64,000 nt of DNA. Origin: Actinopolymorpha alba DSM 45243 (GTDB lineage Bacteria > Actinomycetota > Actinomycetes > Propionibacteriales > Actinopolymorphaceae). The notes beneath the pieces are model-generated. The model saw only the letters and a program-made list of their open reading frames with translations. It was not told the DNA's origin and searched no databases. Both the position numbers and the translations under genes were made by a program. The stretch's first letter is position 1. Each line of letters begins with the position of its first letter. The DNA lies in assembly GCF_000373925.1 (NCBI RefSeq), contig NZ_KB892768.1, forward strand, positions 1-64,000. The letters run 5' to 3'. Of this stretch, positions 2,610-59,447 are shown one piece after another.

Positions 2610-3914
2610 CTAGGGGCGGACAATCTCGACACCGGCGACATTGCGCCGTCCCCGCCGCAGCACCAGCCACCGGCCGTGGAGCAGTTCGGAGGCCTCCGGG
2701 ACAGCGTCAGGGTCAGTCACCCGCTCGTTGTTGATGTACGCGCCACCCTCCTCGATCGTGCGGCGCGCCGCCGACTTGCTCGGCACCAGGCCGGCGTCGA
2801 CGAGCAGATCGACCAGCGGCGGCAGGGTGGAGTCGACCTCGACCCGGGTATGCGGTGTTTCTCGCAGCGCCGCGCCAAGGGTGACCTCGTCGATCTCGGC
2901 GAGCGTCCCGCGCCCGAACAACGCCGCCGACGCGGCAAGCGCCTTCGCGGTCTCATCCGCCCCGTGCACCAGCGTCGTGAGCTCCTCCGCCAACGCACGT
3001 TGCCCCTCCCGTGCCGCCGGGCGTTCCGCCGTGGCCTTCTCCAGCTCCTCGATCTCCTCACGGGACCGGAAGCTGAACGCCCGGAGGTACGTACCAACAT
3101 CAGCGTCAGCGGTGTTGTAGAGGTACTGGTAGAACGCGTACGGCGACATCAGCTCGCCCGACAACCAGACGCTGCCGCTTTCGGTTTTGCCGAGCTTGCG
3201 GCCTTCGGTGTCGGTGAGGAGCGGCGTCGCGAGGGCGTGCACCGTCGTCCCCTCGACCCGACGGATCAGGTCGACCCCCGCCGTGATGTTGCCCCACTGG
3301 TCGGAGCCACCCAGCTGGAGCAGGCAGCCGAACCGCTTGAACAGCTCGAGGTAGTCGTACGCCTGCAGGATCTGGTAGCTGAACTCGGTGTAACCGATGC
3401 CGAGTTCGGAGTTCAGTCGGGCGCTGACGGCTTCCTTCTGGATCATCTTGTTGACCCGGAAGTGCTTGCCGATGTCCCGCAGGAACTCCAGCGCGCTGAT
3501 CGGCGCCGTCCAGTCGAGGTTGTTGACGACGATCGCGGCGTTCGGTCCCTCGAACGACACGAAGGGCCGCACCTGATCCTTGATCTTGTCGACCCAGCCC
3601 GCGACCACCTCGGGCTCGCGGAGCGTGCGTTCGGCATCTGGCTTGGGATCGCCGATCAGTCCGGTCGACCCGCCCACCAGGATGATCGGCCGGTGGCCCG
3701 CCTGCTGGAACCGGCGCGCGGTGAGCAGCTGCACGAGGTTGCCCAGCTGCAGGCTCTGCGCGGACGGGTCGAACCCGACGTAATAGGTGATCGGCCCCGA
3801 CGCGAGTGCGGTGCGGAGCGCGGCCTCGTCGGTCGTGTGAGCGACCATGCCACGCCAGTGCAGCTCGTCCAGAACTCTGTCGTCCGAGGGACGGGTCACC
3901 GTGGTTCCTTCCAT
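2610..3914 (-). CDS. tyrS: tyrosine--tRNA ligase
   Basis: Class I aminoacyl-tRNA synthetase that charges tRNA-Tyr in the cytosol; about 430 residues, normal for bacterial TyrRS. Visible features are the tyrosine/ATP pocket (Y-V-G-F-D-P-S-A-Q-S-L-Q-L-G-N), the G-G-S-D-Q-W-G-N-I tyrosine-binding segment, the KMSKS-equivalent K-L-G-K-T, and a C-terminal S4 RNA-binding domain (D-A-G-L-V-P-S-K-S-A-A-R-R). The upstream ATG (3914) has a poor ribosome-binding site. A GTG at 3899, five codons downstream, follows AAGGAAC at better spacing and gives M-T-R-P-S-D-D-R, so it may be the true start. It is the last gene of the arg-mpg-tyrS run on this strand. Confidence 0.96.
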   Translation of the reverse strand: MEGTTVTRPSDDRVLDELHWRGMVAHTTDEAALRTALASGPITYYVGFDPSAQSLQLGNLVQLLTARRFQQAGHRPIILVGGSTGLIGDPKPDAERTLREPEVVAGWVDKIKDQVRPFVSFEGPNAAIVVNNLDWTAPISALEFLRDIGKHFRVNKMIQKEAVSARLNSELGIGYTEFSYQILQAYDYLELFKRFGCLLQLGGSDQWGNITAGVDLIRRVEGTTVHALATPLLTDTEGRKLGKTESGSVWLSGELMSPYAFYQYLYNTADADVGTYLRAFSFRSREEIEELEKATAERPAAREGQRALAEELTTLVHGADETAKALAASAALFGRGTLAEIDEVTLGAALRETPHTRVEVDSTLPPLVDLLVDAGLVPSKSAARRTIEEGGAYINNERVTDPDAVPEASELLHGRWLVLRRGRRNVAGVEIVRP

Positions 3915-4662: not shown

Positions 4663-6212
<1,550 letters not shown>

Positions 6213-12532: not shown

Positions 12533-13710
<1,178 letters not shown>

Positions 13711-13720
13711 ACCGGTCAAC

Positions 13721-30472: not shown

Positions 30473-30601
30473 CTGCTGGGAGTCCCCTCATCAAGTCGTA
30501 CGCCGGGAAAGTTTAGGCAGTGCCTCCGGCAGGGCCGGACGCACGCTCGACGACGCGCGGCATCTCTGCACCATGCAAGCCAAATTCACCACGTTTCGTA
30601 G

Positions 30602-30629
30602 GGAATGATCACGCAAACGTGATCATTCC
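30602..30629. repeat. AATGATCACG palindrome (3' end of the rRNA methylase gene)
   Basis: GGAATGATCACG, loop CAAA, CGTGATCATTCC: a perfect 12-bp stem. It overlaps the end of the upstream rRNA methylase gene and supplies its last codon and stop (GAA TGA). The adjacent 5' flank (CCATGCAAGCCAAATTC at about 30571-30588) resembles the inner module of the other copies. It is likely a transcript 3' end or mRNA-stabilising hairpin before pheS. Confidence 0.85.
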
Positions 30630-34577: not shown

Positions 34578-34685
34578 GTCTCACATTGTCTACACCCTGC
34601 GGGTACTTCACATGGCTAGTACCTGCTTTGCACGGCGTCCATGCCGCGTGAAGCCCCTAATGACCACGTATACGTGGTCATTAGG
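34578..34685. repeat. mosaic repeat: GTCTCACAT arm plus perfect 30-bp palindrome
   Basis: 34578-34596 reads GTCTCACATTGTCTACACC, one arm of the second repeat family (also at 59044 and 59151). About 60 bases later, 34656-34685 is a perfect palindrome with halves CCTAATGACCACGTA and TACGTGGTCATTAGG, a member of the AATGATCACG family. Between them CTTCACATGG and CCATGCCGCGTGAAG can pair in part. The element lies in the shared upstream region of the divergent LpqC-like and P-loop kinase genes, so it could also act as an operator. Confidence 0.8.
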
Positions 34686-34742
34686 AGGGGCCGGCCCCCT
34701 CCGGAAAGCCGGATCTGCGGGACACGCCCTAGCCTGCTGCCC

Positions 34743-42360: not shown

Positions 42361-42775
42361 GAGCGGACGAGCCGGCCTGTAAGCCGGATTCTGTAATCGG
42401 CGGCCATCCCTCTCAGGTCGCCGTTGCCGGCGACTTCTAGCGGCCTACCCGCAGGCTCGGGCGGGCCGCCCTCAAACACCTGCGCGGGCCAGGATGCTCA
42501 GCGCCTCCTGGCCCTTCTTGGCCTTGCTCCGGGTGGGGTTTACCGAGCCACCTGAGTCACCCCAGGTGCTGGTGGTCTCTTACACCACCGTTTCACCCTT
42601 ACCCGCACCCCCGACCACATCGGGTCGAGGGCCGCTGGCGGTCTGCTTTCTGTGGCACTGTCCCGCGGGTCACCCCGGGTGGGTGTTACCCACCACCCTG
42701 CCCTGCGGAGTCCGGACTTTCCTCGGCGGAACGCTGGAAGCGCCCCGACGCGACCGCCCGGCCGGCTCGTCCGCG
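42361..42775 (-). ncRNA. rnpB: RNase P RNA (type A)
   Basis: The catalytic RNA of RNase P, which trims the 5' leader from pre-tRNA. On the minus strand the conserved GAGGAAAGTCCGG (42712-42724), ACAGAAAGCAGACC (about 42640-42656), GGTAAGGGTGAAA (about 42590-42605) and ACAGAATCCGGCTTACAG (about 42377-42394) cores are all present in order. Helix P1 is formed by GCGGACGAGCCGGC at the 5' end (42761-42774) pairing with GCCGGCTCGTCCGC at the 3' end (42363-42376), fixing both ends. Length is about 415 nt, normal for a high-GC actinobacterium. It follows the RNB-domain gene on the same strand. Confidence 0.97.
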
Positions 42776-46352: not shown

Positions 46353-46369
46353 ACCTCTGGGCGACGATT

Positions 46370-46409
46370 GTGGAGACTCCGGGGTGCTATAACACCCCGG
46401 AGTCTCCAC
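46370..46409. terminator. strong stem-loop terminator
   Basis: GTGGAGACTCCGGGGTG and CACCCCGGAGTCTCCAC form a perfect 17-bp stem with loop CTATAA, 17 bases after the Usp stop. It isolates the permease-Usp pair from the HNH gene. Confidence 0.9.
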
Positions 46410-46500
46410 GGTCTTACGGGCGTCTTACCTACGCCGTCTGGATTCGGCTCCAGAGATATCGGAACGCCTTGAAAATAAGGAATCTCGTCGTGCTCGTCGG

Positions 46501-51407: not shown

Positions 51408-51498
51408 GGAATGATCACGTTTGCGTGGTCATTCACCACGGCACTAGGCAAATTGGCCGTGCGTCGTGGGGAATGACCACGCAAACGTGATCATTCCC
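51408..51498. repeat. inverted doublet of the AATGATCACG palindrome with shared inner module
   Basis: Copies at 51408-51434 and 51469-51498 face each other; their central loop is TTTG in one and CAAA in the other. The 34-base spacer contains CACTAGGCAAATTGGCC (51442-51458), which matches CACTAGGCAAATTTGCC at 59096-59112 inside the second repeat family. The doublet lies between the Nif3-like start and the end of the GT39 gene. Confidence 0.85.
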
Positions 51499-51515
51499 CA
51501 CGACGCGGGGGTGGG

Positions 51516-53720
51516 TCAGGCGCCGCATTTGTACAACGTCTGCGCTCCGCCGGGCATCATCGGGTCGGAGTCCTTCTGCGCGTCAGCGGACCCGCCGTAA
51601 GCCGCCGGGTCGACCACCGTGCAGTGCTGGTCGATCCAGTCGGCGCGAGCCGCTCGCGCTCCCGCGCCCGGTCCGCCCGGCATCCCCGCGGACTTTCCCT
51701 CCCGGCTGGCCCCGAGCACGAACTTCAGCGTCCCGTTGCTGACCCACTCCTGCAGCTGCGCGACCGAGGGCGCGTTGTCAGATCCACTGAAGCCACCCAT
51801 ACCGATCACGGTCTCGTCGGAGTCAATGATGTAGACACCCGCGCCGTTGGCACCGCCCTCGACGGCCAGAGTGATCTCGGCCCCGTCGCCGTGCTGCTTG
51901 GCGTAGTTCAGGATCCGGCGTTGTTCGGCGGTCAGCTTGTCGGAGCCCTTGACCGGGCCGCCTGTCATGAGGCGGGGTTGCCTCCCGGGCGTCCCCTGGG
52001 TCTGGCCCTGGCCCTGGCCCTGCGTCTGGCCCTGGCCGCCGGGCTGCCCAGGCATCGGGCCAGGTCCGCCCACGATCACGGTGCCACCACCCGCCACTCG
52101 CCCGACGAATCCCGCGGTGGACGGCCCGGCGGCTGGCATGCCACCGCTGCCGTTCGCGGCGTCAGCGACCGACCACACTCCGGGCGTCAGCAGGATCGCT
52201 GCCAGACCGGCGACGAACGCAGGCCGCACGACCGCCCGCCACCGCGCCGCCCCGAGCCGGAAGTACCGGAAGAGCCGGGCCACCACCAGGCCAGCGACCG
52301 AGACCGCTCCGACAGCGACCACCGCCCAACGCGTCCAGCCATGCCAGTCGGCGGCGTCCCGCGCGACCACGACCCAGGCCCAGCCCGCGCTGATCGCGAT
52401 GCCGAGCGGAAGCAGCAGCCACGCCAACCGCCCGGGGCGTTGGTAGTACCGCCACAGCAATGCCAACCCGGCGGCGGAGATCGCGGCGATCGCCGGCGCC
52501 AGCATGGTCGTGTAGTAGGGGTGCCAGATGCCCTGCGCGTAGCTGAACAGCAGTCCGGTGACGAGCAGCCAGCTCCCCCACAGGAGCCAGCCGGCCCGCC
52601 GCGCCGGGTCACCTGGCGCCTTCGCGAGCAGACGTCGTACGCCCACAACGGCCACCACGATCAGTACGAGCAGCGACAGAGGCAGCAGCCAGGAGATCTG
52701 CCCACCGGCCGCCGCGTCGAACATCCGGGTGATGCCGGGCTCACCGCCGAACGCCGCGTTCGCCCCAGTGGGAAGCCGTGCACCCTCGGGGAGTTCGGCG
52801 CCGGGCGGAAGCGACGTCACCACCCCCGGCGTCCCACCCGCTTTACCCCCCGGCGCCCCGAGGCCCTGCCCGAAGATCCGGCCGAGTCCGTTGTAGCCGA
52901 AGACCAGCTCCAGCGCGCTGCCGTTGGTACTCCCTCCCATGTACGGCTTCTTTCCGGGCCACAGGTCGTGGAGCACCGGCCACCAGAACGACGACCCGAC
53001 CAGGACCGCCCCGGCCGCGAGCAGGTCCACGAGGCGCCGCCGGAGCGGGGCCGCGACGCCGGCGAAGTACGCGACCGCGACGCCGGGCACGATGATCCAC
53101 GCCTGCAGCATCTTGGTGGCAAAGCCGCAGCCGATGAAGAACGCGCACCACAACAGCCACCGCGTACGCCGGCCAGGCTCCCCGGCGTGCACCGACCTGG
53201 TGAAGGCGTACGCCGCGGCGACGAGCAACAGCATCAGCAGCGTGTCGGGGTTGTTGTACCGGTTGATGGCGACCGTGATCGGCGTGAGCGCCAGCAGCAG
53301 CGCGGCGAGAAGCGCCACCTTCTCGCCGGCCCACAGGCGCACGGTCCGGTGCAGTAGGAACACCGTGGCGACGCCCTCGATCACCTGCGGCAGCAGCAGC
53401 GACCAGCCGTGATACCCGAAGATCCACACGGACACGACCTGCGGCCACAGCGCCATCGGCGGCTTGTCGACGGTAACGACGCCATAAGGGTCGAACGACC
53501 CGAACAGGAAGTTGGTGAAGCTGGTCGACATCGACTTCACCGCGGCCGAGTAGTACGCGTTACCGAGCTGACCGCCACCGATCGCCCAGGCGTACAACAG
53601 TCCGGAGGCGACGCAGATCGCGAGCAGCGCCCACACCGGCCAGCGCGCGGCCTGGGATCCCCGCCCTGGTTGGCGTTCCACCGGACTCGTGCGGGCTGCC
53701 GTATCGGTAGCCGTCGTCAT
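51516..53720 (-). CDS. GT39/ArnT-like membrane glycosyltransferase
   Basis: A 734-residue polytopic glycosyltransferase of the dolichyl-phosphate-mannose/ArnT group. A first TM at ~30-50 is followed by a D-K-P-P acceptor/donor motif (V-V-T-V-D-K-P-P) near residue 85 and about ten more TMs. The C-terminal ~200 residues form an extracytoplasmic domain joined by a Gly/Gln-rich linker (G-Q-T-Q-G-Q-G-Q, about 560-585) encoded by tandem CCTGGC-type repeats around 51995-52050. It probably moves sugar from a polyprenyl-phosphate carrier to a cell-surface acceptor. ATG 53720 overlaps the GT2 gene stop (ATGA). Works with the GT2-GtrA gene upstream. Confidence 0.88.
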   Translation of the reverse strand: MTTATDTAARTSPVERQPGRGSQAARWPVWALLAICVASGLLYAWAIGGGQLGNAYYSAAVKSMSTSFTNFLFGSFDPYGVVTVDKPPMALWPQVVSVWIFGYHGWSLLLPQVIEGVATVFLLHRTVRLWAGEKVALLAALLLALTPITVAINRYNNPDTLLMLLLVAAAYAFTRSVHAGEPGRRTRWLLWCAFFIGCGFATKMLQAWIIVPGVAVAYFAGVAAPLRRRLVDLLAAGAVLVGSSFWWPVLHDLWPGKKPYMGGSTNGSALELVFGYNGLGRIFGQGLGAPGGKAGGTPGVVTSLPPGAELPEGARLPTGANAAFGGEPGITRMFDAAAGGQISWLLPLSLLVLIVVAVVGVRRLLAKAPGDPARRAGWLLWGSWLLVTGLLFSYAQGIWHPYYTTMLAPAIAAISAAGLALLWRYYQRPGRLAWLLLPLGIAISAGWAWVVVARDAADWHGWTRWAVVAVGAVSVAGLVVARLFRYFRLGAARWRAVVRPAFVAGLAAILLTPGVWSVADAANGSGGMPAAGPSTAGFVGRVAGGGTVIVGGPGPMPGQPGGQGQTQGQGQGQTQGTPGRQPRLMTGGPVKGSDKLTAEQRRILNYAKQHGDGAEITLAVEGGANGAGVYIIDSDETVIGMGGFSGSDNAPSVAQLQEWVSNGTLKFVLGASREGKSAGMPGGPGAGARAARADWIDQHCTVVDPAAYGGSADAQKDSDPMMPGGAQTLYKCGA

Positions 53721-54982
53721 GCCGTTTCCCTTCCGTTTGTGTCCCGGAAGACCCATCCGCGCAACAGCAGGAAGCGTCCACCGGTGCCGATGATCGATGA
53801 GGCGAGGAGTACGGAGAGTTCGAGCGCGCGCGAGGGTGCCGCGGCAAGGGCGTGCAGGATCAGCAGCGCGGCCGAGGTGAAGCCGTAGTACAACCCGAAG
53901 ACGGCGAATCCCTGCAGGTGGATCCGGCCACGCGACAGTCGCCTGGCGGAGAACGTGAACCTGCGGTTCGCCTCGGTGTTGGCCAACGTGCTGATCACGA
54001 GCGCGACCAGGTTGGCGACGAGGACCGGCCACCACCGCCGGAACGCCGCGTACAGCACGAGGTTCAGCACGGTGGAGAGCGCGCCGACGGCCGCGAACGA
54101 CAGGACCTGCCAGGACAGCGCTCCGGTCTGGCGTCCGAGCACCGCGTCCGGATGCGCGGCGCGGGGCTCGGGTCGCCGCGGCAGCCCTCCCACCCGCGCA
54201 CTCCCCGACGCCTTGGCGCGGGCGACTCTGACCAGCCCGCGCAGGTCGTCCCACGCGGTGCCGAGTACGTCGACCCGGCTGTCGGTGTCCTCCACCCAGT
54301 CGACCGGGACCTCGTGCACGCGCAGGCCGTTGTACTCGGCGAGGAGCAGGAGTTCGGTGTCGAAGAACCACCCGCCGTCGCGGATCCGGGCCAGCAGCGG
54401 CCTGATCACGTCAGTGCGCGCTGCCTTGAAGCCGCATTGGGCATCGGTGAACCGCGCGCCGTGACTCAGCCTGATCACCGCGTTGTAGCACCGCGAGACG
54501 AACTCCCGTTTGGGTCCGCGCAGGGTCCGTGATCCCGGAGCGAGCCGGGAGCCAATCGAGAGGTCGGAGTGTCCGTTGACCAGCGGCGCGACGAGCGGGA
54601 GCAGGGCGTCCAACCCGGTCGAGAGATCGACGTCCATGTAGACCACGACGTCGGCGGTGCTGGCTCCCCACGCCTCCCGTAACGCGTACCCCCGGCCCTT
54701 GCGGTCGAGGTGGCGGACCCGGACCCGTTCGACGTTCTCGGCCAGTGCCCACGCGAGCGCCAGCGTGCCGTCCGTACTCGCGTTGTCGACGATCGTGATC
54801 GTCGCGTCGAACGGAAACTGCTCGCTGAGGAAGCCGTCCAGGACGCGGACGCACCCGGCGAGGGCCCGCTCCTCGTTGTAGACCGGGATCACGATGTCGA
54901 CCGTCGCGGTCGACGGAAGATCGTCCGCCGGATCGGATGACCCCGCGCGTGATCGTTCGCCCTCGATGATGCTCCCCGACAT
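53717..54982 (-). CDS. GT2 glycosyltransferase fused to GtrA-like membrane domain
   Basis: A 421-residue fusion. Residues ~30-260 are a GT-A fold dolichol-P-mannose synthase-type transferase: V-D-I-V-I-P-V-Y-N-E-E, V-D-N-A-S-T-D-G-T and the metal motif Y-M-D-V-D-L-S. The last ~130 residues are a GtrA-type domain with four TMs (A-V-G-A-L-S-T-V-L-N-L). It probably makes a polyprenyl-phosphate sugar on the inner face and helps flip it, and the coupled GT39 enzyme would then use it. ATG 54982 chosen; longer frame to 55192 possible. Divergent from the response regulator. Confidence 0.9.
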   Translation of the reverse strand: MSGSIIEGERSRAGSSDPADDLPSTATVDIVIPVYNEERALAGCVRVLDGFLSEQFPFDATITIVDNASTDGTLALAWALAENVERVRVRHLDRKGRGYALREAWGASTADVVVYMDVDLSTGLDALLPLVAPLVNGHSDLSIGSRLAPGSRTLRGPKREFVSRCYNAVIRLSHGARFTDAQCGFKAARTDVIRPLLARIRDGGWFFDTELLLLAEYNGLRVHEVPVDWVEDTDSRVDVLGTAWDDLRGLVRVARAKASGSARVGGLPRRPEPRAAHPDAVLGRQTGALSWQVLSFAAVGALSTVLNLVLYAAFRRWWPVLVANLVALVISTLANTEANRRFTFSARRLSRGRIHLQGFAVFGLYYGFTSAALLILHALAAAPSRALELSVLLASSIIGTGGRFLLLRGWVFRDTNGRETA

Positions 54983-55212
54983 GCTCTCTCCATCCACTCC
55001 GACCGCCCCTCCACGCACCGGCCACTCTGTGCAATGGCCGGCTACGACAAGTAGCCGCCATGCGCGTGAGAGCAGCCTCGGGAGAAGCTCAGAAGTTCGT
55101 GAGAAATCCCCTCCGAGGGCCGTCGCCGGGCCGCTCACCCGTGCTGTCTCACGTAGCCTCGGCATCGGTTCCCGGGCTGGCCGGGGACCCATACGAGCGC
55201 AGCGGATGATCG

Positions 55213-55923
55213 ATGGACGAGCCCATGCGAGTGCTGGTGGTGGACGACGACCCGCACGTACGCGAGAGCCTGCGGGCGAGCCTGGAGTTCGAGGGGTACG
55301 CCGTCGAGACCGCCAGCGACGGGGAGCAGGCTTTCGACCGGCTCAGCCCGCCCCAGCCAGCGGGAGCATCCCCTGACCTGGTGATCCTCGACCTGATGAT
55401 GCCGCGGCTGGACGGTCTGGAGACCTGCCGGCGCCTGCGGAGCGCCGGCGAGCGCCTGCCCATCCTCATGCTCACCGCCCGGGACGCGCTCGGTGATCGG
55501 GTCACCGGTCTGGACGCCGGGGCCGACGACTATCTCGTGAAGCCGTTCGCCCTCGAGGAGCTCCTCGCCCGGCTGCGCGCACTCCTCCGGCACCGGCGTA
55601 GCCCCTCCTCCACACCCGGCCGCGGACCGGTGCTGCGCTTCGCGGACCTGGAGCTGGACACAGGCACGCGGGAGGTGACCCGCGCCGGCCGGCCGATCAC
55701 GCTGACCCGGACCGAGTTCGACCTACTCAGCCTGCTGATGGGGGCACCCCGGCGGGTACTCACGCGGGGTCACCTGCAGCAGGAGGTCTGGGGGTACGAC
55801 ACCAGCACCAACAACCTTGACGTCTACGTCGGCTATCTCCGCCGCAAGACCGAGGCGGGTGGCGCCAGCCGGCTCGTCCACACCGTCCGCGGCGTCGGAT
55901 ACGTCCTCCGCTCCGAACCATGA
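55213..55923 (+). CDS. OmpR/PhoB-family response regulator
   Basis: A 236-residue two-domain regulator. The receiver has acidic triad D11-D12-D13, phosphoacceptor D60 (V-I-L-D-L-M-M), T-A-R-D and the conserved Lys in V-K-P-F. The C-terminal winged helix (about 135-234) shows [13 protein letters not shown] and R-R-K-T-E-A...R-G-V-G-Y-V-L-R. It overlaps the kinase gene by four bases (ATGA). It is divergent from the glycosyltransferase pair and may control it; similar MprA-like systems in actinobacteria respond to envelope stress. Confidence 0.95.
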
Positions 55924-57374
55924 AGTCGCCCGGCCGCACCATGCGGAAACCACGCGAACGCCGGATGTTGCTCCGCAGCCGGGTCGCTCTGAGCACCGCG
56001 CTCGTCGTCGCGGCCGCCATCGCGGGGATCAGCATCCTGAGCTGGGTGGTGACGCAGCACAACCTGCGTGCCCAGCTCGACGAGTCGCTCACCCGCGGCG
56101 GCGTGCGGTTGGTGGGCGCGATCCGGCACGAGCTGGGCCAGGCACAACTCCCACCCCCACCGCCGATGCCCGACCCGAGCCTGCTCTGCCGGGTCGACAA
56201 CGCGAACGAACCCCTGCAGCGGTTCGTCGAGGGCATCCAGCTTCTCCGGAACGACGGCAGCGTGTGCGCACCGACAGGCGTGGACGAGGTGGTGACAACC
56301 GCACAGGACCGCCGGGTCACGACCCCGACGCTGCGCGACGGCGAGACCCGATCCGGCGCGCAGGTGCGGGTCCTGCTGCGTCCGCTGGAAGACGGCGGCG
56401 TCCTGGTCACCAGCCGCAGCCTGGCCACGATCAACAACACCTTGGCCGGCCTCCGAACCACCCTCATCGGCGTGTCCGTCCTTGGTGTCGCGGTCGCCGC
56501 CGCGTCCGGCCTCCTCCTCACCCGGAACGCGCTCGCCCCGATGGAGCGGCTGACCCGGACCGCCGAACACATCGCCCGCACCGAGGACCTCGCCACGCCG
56601 GTGGACGTGTCCGGGCGGGACGAGGTCGGCCGGCTCGGCCGGGCGTTCACGGCGATGACAGCCGCGCTCGCCGTGTCCAGACAACGCCAGCGCGAACTCG
56701 TCACCGACGCCGCGCACGAACTCCGTACCCCGCTCACCAGCCTGCGTACGAACGTCGACCTGCTCGTCCGAAGCGAGCGCACCGGCCGGCCCCTCCGGCC
56801 AGACCAACGCGCGCGGATCCTCTCCAGCCTCCAGTCGCAGACGGGTGAGTTCAGCGACCTGATCACCGAACTCGTCCAGCTCGCCCGCGACGAACGCGAA
56901 CTCGCCCGCACCGAGGTGCCGATGGCCGACGTCATCGCCAAGGCGGTCCGCCGGGCCAGCAGCCGTGCCCGCGAGCATCGGTTCGCGGTGGACGCGGTGC
57001 CCTGGTGCACGATCGGCGACGCCTCCGCGCTGGAGCGGTCCCTGCTCAACCTGCTCGACAACGCGGTGAAGTTCTCGCCGTCGACGTCGCTGGTCAGCGT
57101 CTCGTCGCGGCCCGGCTGGATCATCGTCGCCGACCAGGGGCCGGGTGTCCCACGGGAGCAACAGGCGCACGCGTTCGACCGCTTCTGGCGCGCACCGGAA
57201 GCGCGGTCGCTCCCCGGCTCAGGACTCGGGCTGGCGATCGTCGCGACGACGACAGCCGCTCACGGCGGTCAGGTCCGCTTCCTCGACCCACCGAAGGGTC
57301 GGGGCGCATGCGTACGCGTCGACCTCCCGGTGACGCCTCTGTGCCCGAGCGAACCCCACGCGGGCCCGGAATGA
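55920..57374 (+). CDS. sensor histidine kinase
   Basis: A 484-residue membrane kinase: TM1 at ~22-44, extracytoplasmic sensor of ~135 residues with a Pro run (about 78-84), TM2 at ~180-200, HAMP (~200-250), HisKA with H266 in [10 protein letters not shown], and HATPase ([25 protein letters not shown]). Partner of the overlapping response regulator. The stop codon (GAA TGA) is part of the palindromic repeat at 57366; the sequence just before it is ordinary. The signal is unknown. Confidence 0.95.
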
Positions 57375-57397
57375 CCACGTATACGTGATCATTCCGG
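57366..57397. repeat. AATGACCACG palindrome / bidirectional terminator
   Basis: CCGGAATGACCACGTA and TACGTGATCATTCCGG form a 16-bp stem with one A-C mismatch; it overlaps the kinase stop and ends before the convergent CE15-like gene. Placement suggests a bidirectional terminator; it belongs to the repeat family also at 6122, 30602, 34656 and 51408. Confidence 0.85.
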
Positions 57398-57398
57398 C

Positions 57399-58571
57399 TC
57401 AGCGCGAGCGCCGCAGGTGACGGTCGGCCGCGTCGGCGAAGCGTTCCCAGTCGTACGCCGTCATCGCGTGGCCGCCCGGCCTGATGTGGTAGCCGATCCG
57501 GCTCAGCACGGGCTCCGACACCGGCGGCAGCTCGGTCGCCGCGAGCCCTTCCACGCCGAGCAGCTCATACACCGGTGAGGCGTACCTGCCGCCGAGGAAC
57601 TCGCCGTACGGATCGGCCCAGTCGTCGTCCTGCGCGCTCGCGATGTAGAACGGACGCGGCGCGATCAGCGCGACGAGCTGATGTTGGTCGAAGGCCAGCG
57701 TCTCCTCGCGGTCCGCGTACGCCGAGAAGTTCGGGCAGAACCAGTGCGGGAACCTCCGGGTGATCGCGTCGACCGTCTCGCCGTGGCGACGGCGGGACAG
57801 CGCGACGCCCCCGCATCCGGAGTTGTTGGACACCGCCATCGCGAAGCGTTCGTCCTGCGCGGCGGCCCACATCGCGGTCTTGCCAAGTCTGGAGTGGCCG
57901 ACCGCGATCACGCGCTCGGGATCCACCCGTGAGTCCTCCTGAAGGTGGTCGAGCGCCCGGCTGAGCCCCCACGCCCACGCGCCGATGGCACCCCACTCGT
58001 CGGGGCCGGGGCGGGTCTGTCCGTCGGTGTAGAAGAGTGGGTGTACGCCGTTGGAGAAGTCGTCGACGTCGGGGTCGAGGTCTTCGTACCACGCGGTCGC
58101 GACGGCGTAGCCGCGTTCGATCATCCGCTCCAGCGGCCAGCGCTGCCTGAGCACGTCGGGCTCAGTCGGGTCCCCGAACTCCGCCGCCTGGTTGCCACGG
58201 AAGTTCAGACCGAGGAACGTCGGCGCCCGGTCGCCCGCTGGCTCGTTGGGGAGGTGGATGAGCAATGTCATGCCCGGCCCGTCTGACGCTGGCCCGAACG
58301 ACAGCCGCACCTCGACCCGGGTCGCCCGCCCGTCCAGCGCCGCGGGCTCCTCGGACAGGACCTCACGGTGGACGGCGATCGCGGTATCCGGCGTCCGGCC
58401 GAACATCTGGCTCGCGAACAACTCCAGCAACTCCGGCCGGCGTCGGGCGTACCACTCCTCCGCCGACGTCACCACGCTCCCGTCGGCACAGACCAGCGGG
58501 TCAGGCAGACCTCCGGGCACTGACAGCCGCCCGTCGGGCAGGGCCAGCCGTCCGATCGTCGTGTCGACCAT
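57399..58571 (-). CDS. glucuronoyl esterase-like hydrolase (CE15/acetylxylan-esterase type)
   Basis: A 390-residue alpha/beta hydrolase. The nucleophile elbow [13 protein letters not shown] sits near residue 225, matching the G-x-S-R-x-G-K motif of CE15 4-O-methyl-glucuronoyl methylesterases, where the Arg binds the uronate. [20 protein letters not shown] and the C-terminal G-G-H-A-M catalytic His are in order. No signal peptide is evident, unlike most secreted CE15 enzymes, so it may act on imported fragments. It stands alone; the LacI-regulated-looking transporter elsewhere is the only hint of plant-polysaccharide use. Confidence 0.85.
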
Positions 58572-59043
58572 GGCGTTCCTCGTCTCGCGCGGGCTTGGCG
58601 GGGCAGGCTGAACGAAGCTCGGAGCAGCGTCATGAGGCTACTGGCTGGCACCGCGCCGGTCAGTACGGATGAGCGTCAGACTCCTGGCCAGAATCCACGC
58701 GGTGACCAGGGCCGGCGCGAACGCGGTCGGGCCGCAGCCGACCGAGCCGTAGAACCGCGACGGGTCAGGTGCGAAGTAGAGCCGCCTCGGGCGCTACGGA
58801 CGAGGGCCCGCGTCCACCGGAGTCGCCGACTGACGCTGTACCGATCGCGCCGAGGTTCCGCTGTAAGGGGTGAGGTGTTTAGGTAAGGCATCGCAGTTGT
58901 GAGACAGTTCGGGTCTTCGTGCGCCACAAGTCGTCGCCAAGCAAGGCGAATTCAGCTGCTTCGTCGGGAGATACCACGTGAGGTGGCGGCCGTCTCGAAT
59001 GGCGTACACCCGGCCGTATCGGATACTGAGAAACCAGGCTTCT

Positions 59044-59169
59044 GTCTCACATCGTGTACACCCCTTGGCGGACCTCACGCGCCAAGTCCCCACCTCACTA
59101 GGCAAATTTGCCTTGCCTGGTAGGGATATCCCCCGTCTCGCACCGCAGAAGGTGTACACAATGTGAGAC
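59044..59169. repeat. GTCTCACAT inverted repeat element
   Basis: GTCTCACATCGTGTACACC (59044-59062) and GGTGTACACAATGTGAGAC (59151-59169) are 19-bp inverted arms with one mismatch, 88 bases apart. Inside lie TTGGCG/CGCCAA arms and the palindrome GGCAAATTTGCC at 59101-59112 within CACTAGGCAAATTTGCC. One arm also occurs at 34578. The size and terminal arms resemble a small non-autonomous mobile element, but no target-site duplication was confirmed. Confidence 0.75.
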
Positions 59170-59235: not shown

Positions 59236-59298
59236 TGATCAACTAGCAGAAATCGCCCACGATTCGCGCGGATCTTGGGCGATTTCTGCAAGTTGATC
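59236..59298. repeat. long palindrome (possible terminator or REP-like unit)
   Basis: TGATCAACTAGCAGAAATCG... (59236-59263) pairs with 59271-59298 over about 26 bp with two or three mismatches around TCGCGCG. It is upstream of nothing transcribed toward it except the minus-strand MarR gene, which ends 150 bases away, so it may terminate that transcript. I have an impression that GCAGAAATCGCCC palindromes recur in actinobacterial genomes; this is not checked. Confidence 0.7.
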
Positions 59299-59447
59299 AA
59301 GCTTCGACCCGAATATCGCTCACTATGCGAGATCGACCATCGACATCACCCTGACCTGGCGGAGAAGCCGACGCGCCTCAGCCAGGTTGGCTTTCGCCCC
59401 ACTCAGAGCCACCAAGTTGCCAGCGCCGCGGGTTTGAACAGGCTTCA

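Follow-up and report, generated by a model that had tools for sequence, protein, structure and literature searches.

Why does the same short string occupy the centre of two palindromic repeats whose arms differ? The question is raised by the first 64,000 bases of contig C62 of Actinopolymorpha alba (hereafter the window; the whole genome is 7.98 Mb in 127 contigs), where one string is found between paired copies of a 24-bp unit, AATGATCACG (U arms), and again, with one base changed, within an inverted element, GTCTCACAT, that has arms of another kind (T arms). Both occurrences are exactly where the original prediction had reported them. We consider it reasonably probable (about 0.6) that these sequences are non-coding, non-autonomous mobile repeats built as concentric palindromes, in which outer arms (U, T facing inward, or T facing outward) surround an inner core of class I or class II. 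The counts of arm-by-core combinations given below carry this claim; they show that arms and cores combine variously and that mixed hybrids, T-armed on one side and U-armed on the other, exist. The features of the window from which the argument starts are these:

51408-51497, unstranded: U-doublet of class I, with units at 51410-51433 and 51472-51495 and core at 51434-51471; a 90-bp inverted repeat, 87% complementary
51442-51458, plus strand: core string CACTAGGCAAATTGGCC, within the class I core
59044-59169, plus strand: T element of 126 bp, with arms at 59044-59062 and 59151-59169 (18 of 19 positions complementary) and class I core at 59088-59125
59096-59112, plus strand: core string CACTAGGCAAATTTGCC, one base different from the copy at 51442-51458
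30566-30627, unstranded: half element, class I core 30566-30603 followed by unit 30604-30627
6124-6209, unstranded: U-doublet of class II, core at 6148-6185
34578-34730, plus strand: T/U hybrid, with T arm 34578-34596, class II core 34621-34658, unit 34659-34682 and an outer MITE-like end at 34712-34730

The sequence common to the two settings is longer than the string first noticed. With up to two mismatches, CACTAGGCAAATTNGCC has 36 matches in its own genome and the reversed pattern has none, and the matches are therefore beyond chance. The string forms the middle of an inner palindrome of 38 bp, the class I core, whose copies at 51434-51471 and 59088-59125 are 79% identical to each other. 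This core is placed between two AATGATCACG units, inside the GTCTCACAT element, and beside T arms that are turned outward. The related sequence said to flank the copy at 30602 is also there, since the class I profile gives 30566-30603 a score of 37.0 and a unit adjoins it. Inner 38-bp segments form two classes, class I resembling CCCCAC...GGCAAATT...GTGGGG and class II resembling GCCTGC...CATGGCATCGACACCATG...GCAGGC. Across different arms, cores of one class have a mean identity of 0.711 (U-armed against T-armed class I) and 0.722 (U-armed class II against class II bearing a T arm); cores of different classes with a common arm reach 0.455 and 0.483, and shuffled sequence 0.281.

Core and arm tallies were made over 1.65 Mb, which was partly picked around repeats: 98 loci around listed arm and core sites were extracted (586,572 bases; a part of the arm sites was listed) and contigs C1, C2 and C62 were taken whole (1.19 Mb). 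Profiles trained on 11 class I and 32 class II doublet cores, which the profiles then recover, find 98 class I and 51 class II places, training members included; the reversed sequence of the three whole contigs gives no profile match. The class I cores have U arms on both sides in 15 cases, T arms on both sides in 33, a single U arm in five, a single T arm in three and neither arm in 41, with one at a contig edge. Among those 41, an outward T arm is present on at least one side in 33, on both sides in 12, and on none in eight. Class II cores are flanked by two U arms in 35 cases, by one T and one U arm in 11, by two T arms in two and by one U arm in two, again with one at an edge. The three whole contigs alone contain, for class I, six U/U, two T/T, three with one U arm and eight with neither, and, for class II, 19 U/U and three T/U. 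Tried at 3000 random sites, the arm tests gave 0, 2 and 3 false calls. The proposal of a modular element with exchanged ends is thus upheld by core copies that sort into several arm-core combinations, and the further genomic copies of either arm around the core on which it depended are present in number. The same inner module joined to different end modules is the pattern described for BOX elements.

The two arm families differ in how they are built into larger elements. The U unit has 283 matches in the genome, or 325 with a degenerate pattern, and none for the reversed controls; pattern counts cover both strands, and a perfectly palindromic unit is scored twice. All 37 unit pairs less than 150 bp apart in the 98 loci have a spacing of 62 bp, leaving a roughly palindromic inner segment of 38 bp. 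Paired units are in opposite orientation, judged by eye from the asymmetric position of GGTC/GACC, and this regular spacing is that of a bacterial interspersed mosaic element (BIME). The 24-bp unit itself is highly constant and its flanks are variable. The T arm GTCTCACATTGTGTACACC has 130 genome matches at up to three mismatches, and its reversed control has none. Within the T element the class I segment is central, 44 bp from either end, with a middle stretch on each side, and the element is usually part of a composite of about 400 bp, as it is here:

58905-59169, plus strand: part of a larger T composite, including 59044-59169; 87% identical over this stretch to the composite at locus L108

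A genome search with one composite found at least 35 strong places, including the query, and many partial ones, 79-90% identical; the total is a lower bound because only part of the candidates was scored. Composites were oriented by a short-motif rule, and, with the four of 36 that abut a contig edge excluded, a gene 3' end is faced by one particular side in 26 of 32 and by the opposite side in 18 of 32. Composites lie within the first 1.2 kb of contigs C42, C53, C60, C89 and C126, and these repeats may therefore have broken the assembly. A hairpin in the window, GATTGTGGAGACTCCGGGGTGCTATAACACCCCGGAGTCTCCACGGTC at 46366-46413, resembles by eye the one at the outer end of the T composite.

Most of the 11 hybrids have flanks in common on both sides, and several terminate in AGGGCGTGTCCNGTAGATC, for which the genome has 21 sites. 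The hybrids at L090 and L102 are 279 bp long, identical at 267 of 279 positions, and run from TAGGGC to GCCCTA between flanks that differ by eye. In these two copies only was the form of a miniature inverted-repeat transposable element (MITE) seen, that is, a short unit with terminal inverted repeats at different sites. TA stands at both of their ends and may belong to the inverted repeat.

How such elements might have arisen can be sketched as follows. Copies would be spread in trans by a transposase. Arms may be exchanged when similar palindromes recombine or undergo gene conversion, or when one palindrome inserts at the middle of another. The two halves of a palindrome could be kept matched by template switching inside it, and one hybrid could have been captured between TAGGGCGTGTCC-type ends and then spread as a MITE-like unit. 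A stronger version seems doubtful to us: palindromes would be inserted or exchanged at the middle of others (the hairpin tips) by a process dedicated to this, and concentric arms and cores would thereby be reassorted in cassette fashion and multiplied across the genome within one lineage.

The linked transposase or intact parental element that the original prediction suggested looking for did not emerge from a search in which Y1 was the only transposase family covered and arm sites were listed in part. Nine Y1 transposase matches are present in the genome. Five of these proteins were classified; all pass the IS200 model and none reaches the cut-off of 80 bits for REP-associated tyrosine transposases (RAYTs; REP, repetitive extragenic palindrome), the best scoring 25.5. 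Among eight Y1 loci, a unit is found roughly 1 kb from one, and none has two units in the stretch examined. We accordingly rejected RAYT-driven REPs, given IS200-type proteins in the five of nine classified and no unit pair at the eight loci. A parental insertion sequence was also sought through the outer hybrid end, whose 21 sites include some pairs about 0.2-0.3 kb apart and none listed at insertion-sequence length, and this line gave no candidate among the ends examined. No transposase-like open reading frame was apparent by eye beside the one lone outer end examined, in L230. Among the T matches listed (100 of 130), no plus/minus pair consecutive on a contig is separated by 0.2-15 kb. Two whole T elements lie 0.9 kb apart with no called gene between them.

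The elements have a distinct position relative to genes, which were called with our own codon-usage callers, independently of annotation, and named by eye. None of the 38 U elements in the three whole contigs is inside a called gene, and two extend 5 bases over a gene end. Fifteen are convergent, 17 codirectional and six divergent, where these arrangements make up 20.5, 52.6 and 26.8% of intergenic length. A gene 3' end faces 32 of the 38, at less than 90 bp in 27 of the 32. High copy number, intergenic location and 3'-end bias, as expected of REPs, are all seen (325 pattern matches; 38 elements). Within the window, unit 30604-30627 overlaps the 3' end of a minus-strand gene (30623) by 5 bases, and one further unit is similarly placed:

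57370-57393, unstranded: single unit between two convergent 3' ends, one at 57374 (with a 5-base overlap) and one at 57399

The family has so far been seen in quantity only in this genome. With one mismatch allowed, the U pattern is absent from all five congeners, and 51 other relatives have a single one-mismatch site between them, in G007. The perfect U palindrome has one match, to an unrelated species, in a contig collection that possibly does not include the present genome. At up to two mismatches the T arm occurs in one of 293 genomes of the order, which is this one (114 times), and the T composite was found in none of 18 relatives and in this genome only (1 of 19).

Several results weigh against the reading of these sequences as mobile palindromes. 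Neither a target-site duplication nor an exact empty site was demonstrated, and no autonomous element with T arms or outer hybrid ends was seen, Y1 being the only transposase family searched. The 79-90% identity of composite copies means that their spread is not obviously recent. A comparison of gap lengths, which counts in favour, took in element-bearing gaps and no element-free controls: the gap in the relative G002 is shorter in seven of eight convergent gaps with conserved synteny (nine conserved in all, eight compared): lengths of 240, 177, 217, 118, 190, 778, 103 and 178 correspond to 133, 42, 11, 0, 19, 1048, 37 and 31 in G002, which fits insertion in the present lineage or loss in the relative. 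The 3'-end bias and the orientation of elements also fit selection for terminators. Finally, covariation in the doublets is mixed and its support is only partial, as two of five measures for the palindrome do not exceed shuffles. Over a 98-column palindrome in 37 doublets, 83.1% of cells pair against 78.7 in shuffles (0 of 500 reach this), and 135 cells show double changes against 90.3 (0 of 500; slid versions give at most 66), although cell counts are inflated by the mixing of two core classes. The pairs with a double change number 19 against 22.3 (500 of 500 shuffles reach this) and further pair types 54 against 55.9 (413 of 500), without excess in either. When each unit was treated as a separate hairpin, 28 double-change cells were counted against 18.8 (1 of 500; slid at most 38) and eight pairs with a double change against 9.0 (467 of 500), a poorer fit than one long palindrome, and this model was set aside.

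Three other explanations bear on the same observations. A possible though unlikely account is that the elements are functional 3'-end RNA hairpins, acting as bidirectional terminators or mRNA stabilisers under RNA-level selection, with the mosaic a by-product of copying good hairpins. It would explain why 27 U elements have a facing 3' end less than 90 bp away and why 15 of 38 fall in convergent gaps that hold 20.5% of intergenic length. It also agrees with single units: in 49 of them the flanks are complementary over 5 bp of varying sequence (at positions 1-5 the observed value is attained in 0, 0, 0, 9 and 10 of 2000 permutations; no excess from position 6 on), and in 24 of 27 that could be scored the G.U mismatch is on the transcribed strand of the gene with the nearest 3' end, including 12 of 12 codirectional cases and 15 of 18 when nine hybrid-type rows, chosen by eye, are dropped. 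This polarity may be explained by an arrangement in which the unit is next to the gene and the core beyond it, for in half and hybrid elements the unit side is toward a 3' end in 15 of 18 and the core side in nine of 18 (our own count). In the 42 doublets the excess of flank complementarity is confined to about 2 bases, and G.U and A.C mismatches on the transcribed strand are balanced (82 against 91 over 33 doublets, 46 against 45 over the 17 codirectional ones; nine of 42 are divergent and unscorable), whereas RNA selection should favour G.U. The balance therefore favours a palindrome maintained at the DNA level over a selected RNA hairpin, and 13 of 91 elements are flanked by divergent gene pairs. 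RNA-hairpin selection as sole cause is unsupported by the doublet mismatches; we favour maintenance at the DNA level, with terminator activity possible. The strand symmetry of the doublet mismatches is also what would be expected of a dyad site bound by a nucleoid, segregation or regulatory protein, with copies dispersed through use of the site, and a 24-bp unit held constant amid variable flanks suits such a site. We nevertheless regard this as very improbable, as the units were not found in five congeners that presumably have the same nucleoid proteins, and 38-bp cores, T arms and multi-copy composites would be left unexplained.

That the elements mark boundaries of mobile gene cassettes, with genes gained between two copies, was attractive from three cases. 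The segment 51516-57374 contains four genes (by eye, membrane glycosyltransferase-like, a second glycosyltransferase, a response regulator and a histidine kinase) with a U element at each end, and in five congeners an esterase-like gene instead directly precedes a Nif3-like gene (by eye); the arrangement is different in G006, which belongs to another genus. At C1:210915-212487 (L017) two class I doublets enclose a methyltransferase-like gene, whose outer neighbours adjoin directly in the four relatives counted, G001, G002, G003 and G006 (by eye; G004 and G005 left out). An AbiEi-like gene (by eye) is enclosed by inverted unit-plus-core halves at C1:229297-230584 (L018). As a general rule this was dropped, and we give it very little credence: synteny between C1 and G002 is broken in nine of 18 element gaps where 12.3 are expected from matched gaps, and among convergent gaps the broken ones are three of the 11 that contain elements and 33 of the 41 that do not; elements are therefore not enriched at breaks. 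C1 is ordinary chromosomal sequence by its conserved gene order, with 261 of its 470 called genes matching the 400 kb of G002 compared and 260 of these in the same order.

Among known systems, we file these repeats as a variant of the composite, non-autonomous palindromic repeats of REP/MITE type. REPs are described as high-copy intergenic palindromes, often 3' of genes and in convergent gaps, forming dimers with structured spacers (PMC3733652, PMC2817692); hybrid dimers of differing families and REPs within other palindromes are on record (PMC3733652), and RAYT genes are flanked by REPs (PMC2817692). The present elements share the copy number, 3' bias, dimers and palindrome-in-palindrome arrangement set out in PMC3733652; they differ in the near-perfect dyad unit, the 62-bp spacing and a 38-bp palindromic core common to another arm family. 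The original assignment to a composite REP/BIME or MITE kind stands for the BIME-like spacing and for the MITE-like ends of some hybrids. It fails for strict REPs because the GTAG/CGTC tag is not enriched: within 8 bp of 91 elements, compared with random intergenic positions, GTAG occurs 1 time against 1.6 and 0 against 1.5, and CGTC 1 against 7.0 and 6 against 6.1. The nearest precedent for exchanged ends, going by description, is the BOX element of streptococci, which in S. suis has two different pairs of end modules around the same boxB modules (PMC3049150); as described there, its inner modules are in tandem, unlike the concentric palindromes of this GC-rich host. The two 279-bp hybrids are like MITEs, for example TIMEs (PMC4133298) or the Correia elements named in PMC3049150, in having matching inverted ends at different sites. 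Unlike MITEs, they have no cognate insertion sequence found (Y1 again the only family searched) and no proven target-site duplication, and U-doublets have no visible terminal repeat separate from the palindrome. Literature listings on actinomycete and order-level palindromic repeats, and on the exact sequences, contained no description of this family, and listings on Frankia and MITEs and on chimeric or mosaic repeats added nothing of use.

Other structured sequences also occur in the window and its contig. A known structured RNA was rejected as an identity for the repeats, the sole Rfam match at gathering threshold in the window being RNase P RNA (class A, minus strand, 42364-42769). An abundant hairpin family, TTGTCAKAGGTTTCTCGGTCTCTTAGCCGAGAAACC..., is represented at 13662-13715 and at C62:86182, 143520 and 190948; one of its 10-mers recurs in 20 of the 406 intergenic hairpins, and the changes CAGAGG/CCTCTG and CATAGG/CCTATG look paired by eye. 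A 64-bp inverted repeat, TGATCAACTAGCAGAAATCGCCC...GGGCGATTTCTGCAAGTTGATCA, occupies 59236-59299, and a related one is at C62:143248.

In sum, a single genome contains two families of arms and two of cores together with their hybrids, and the assembly of repeats from parts is rarely so visible in bacteria. The strand-symmetric mismatches of the doublets counsel caution in taking covariation within a palindrome as proof of a functional RNA. The system opens the way to tests of how parts are exchanged among palindromic repeats, of the enzyme that spreads them, and of selection on RNA against template switching on DNA.

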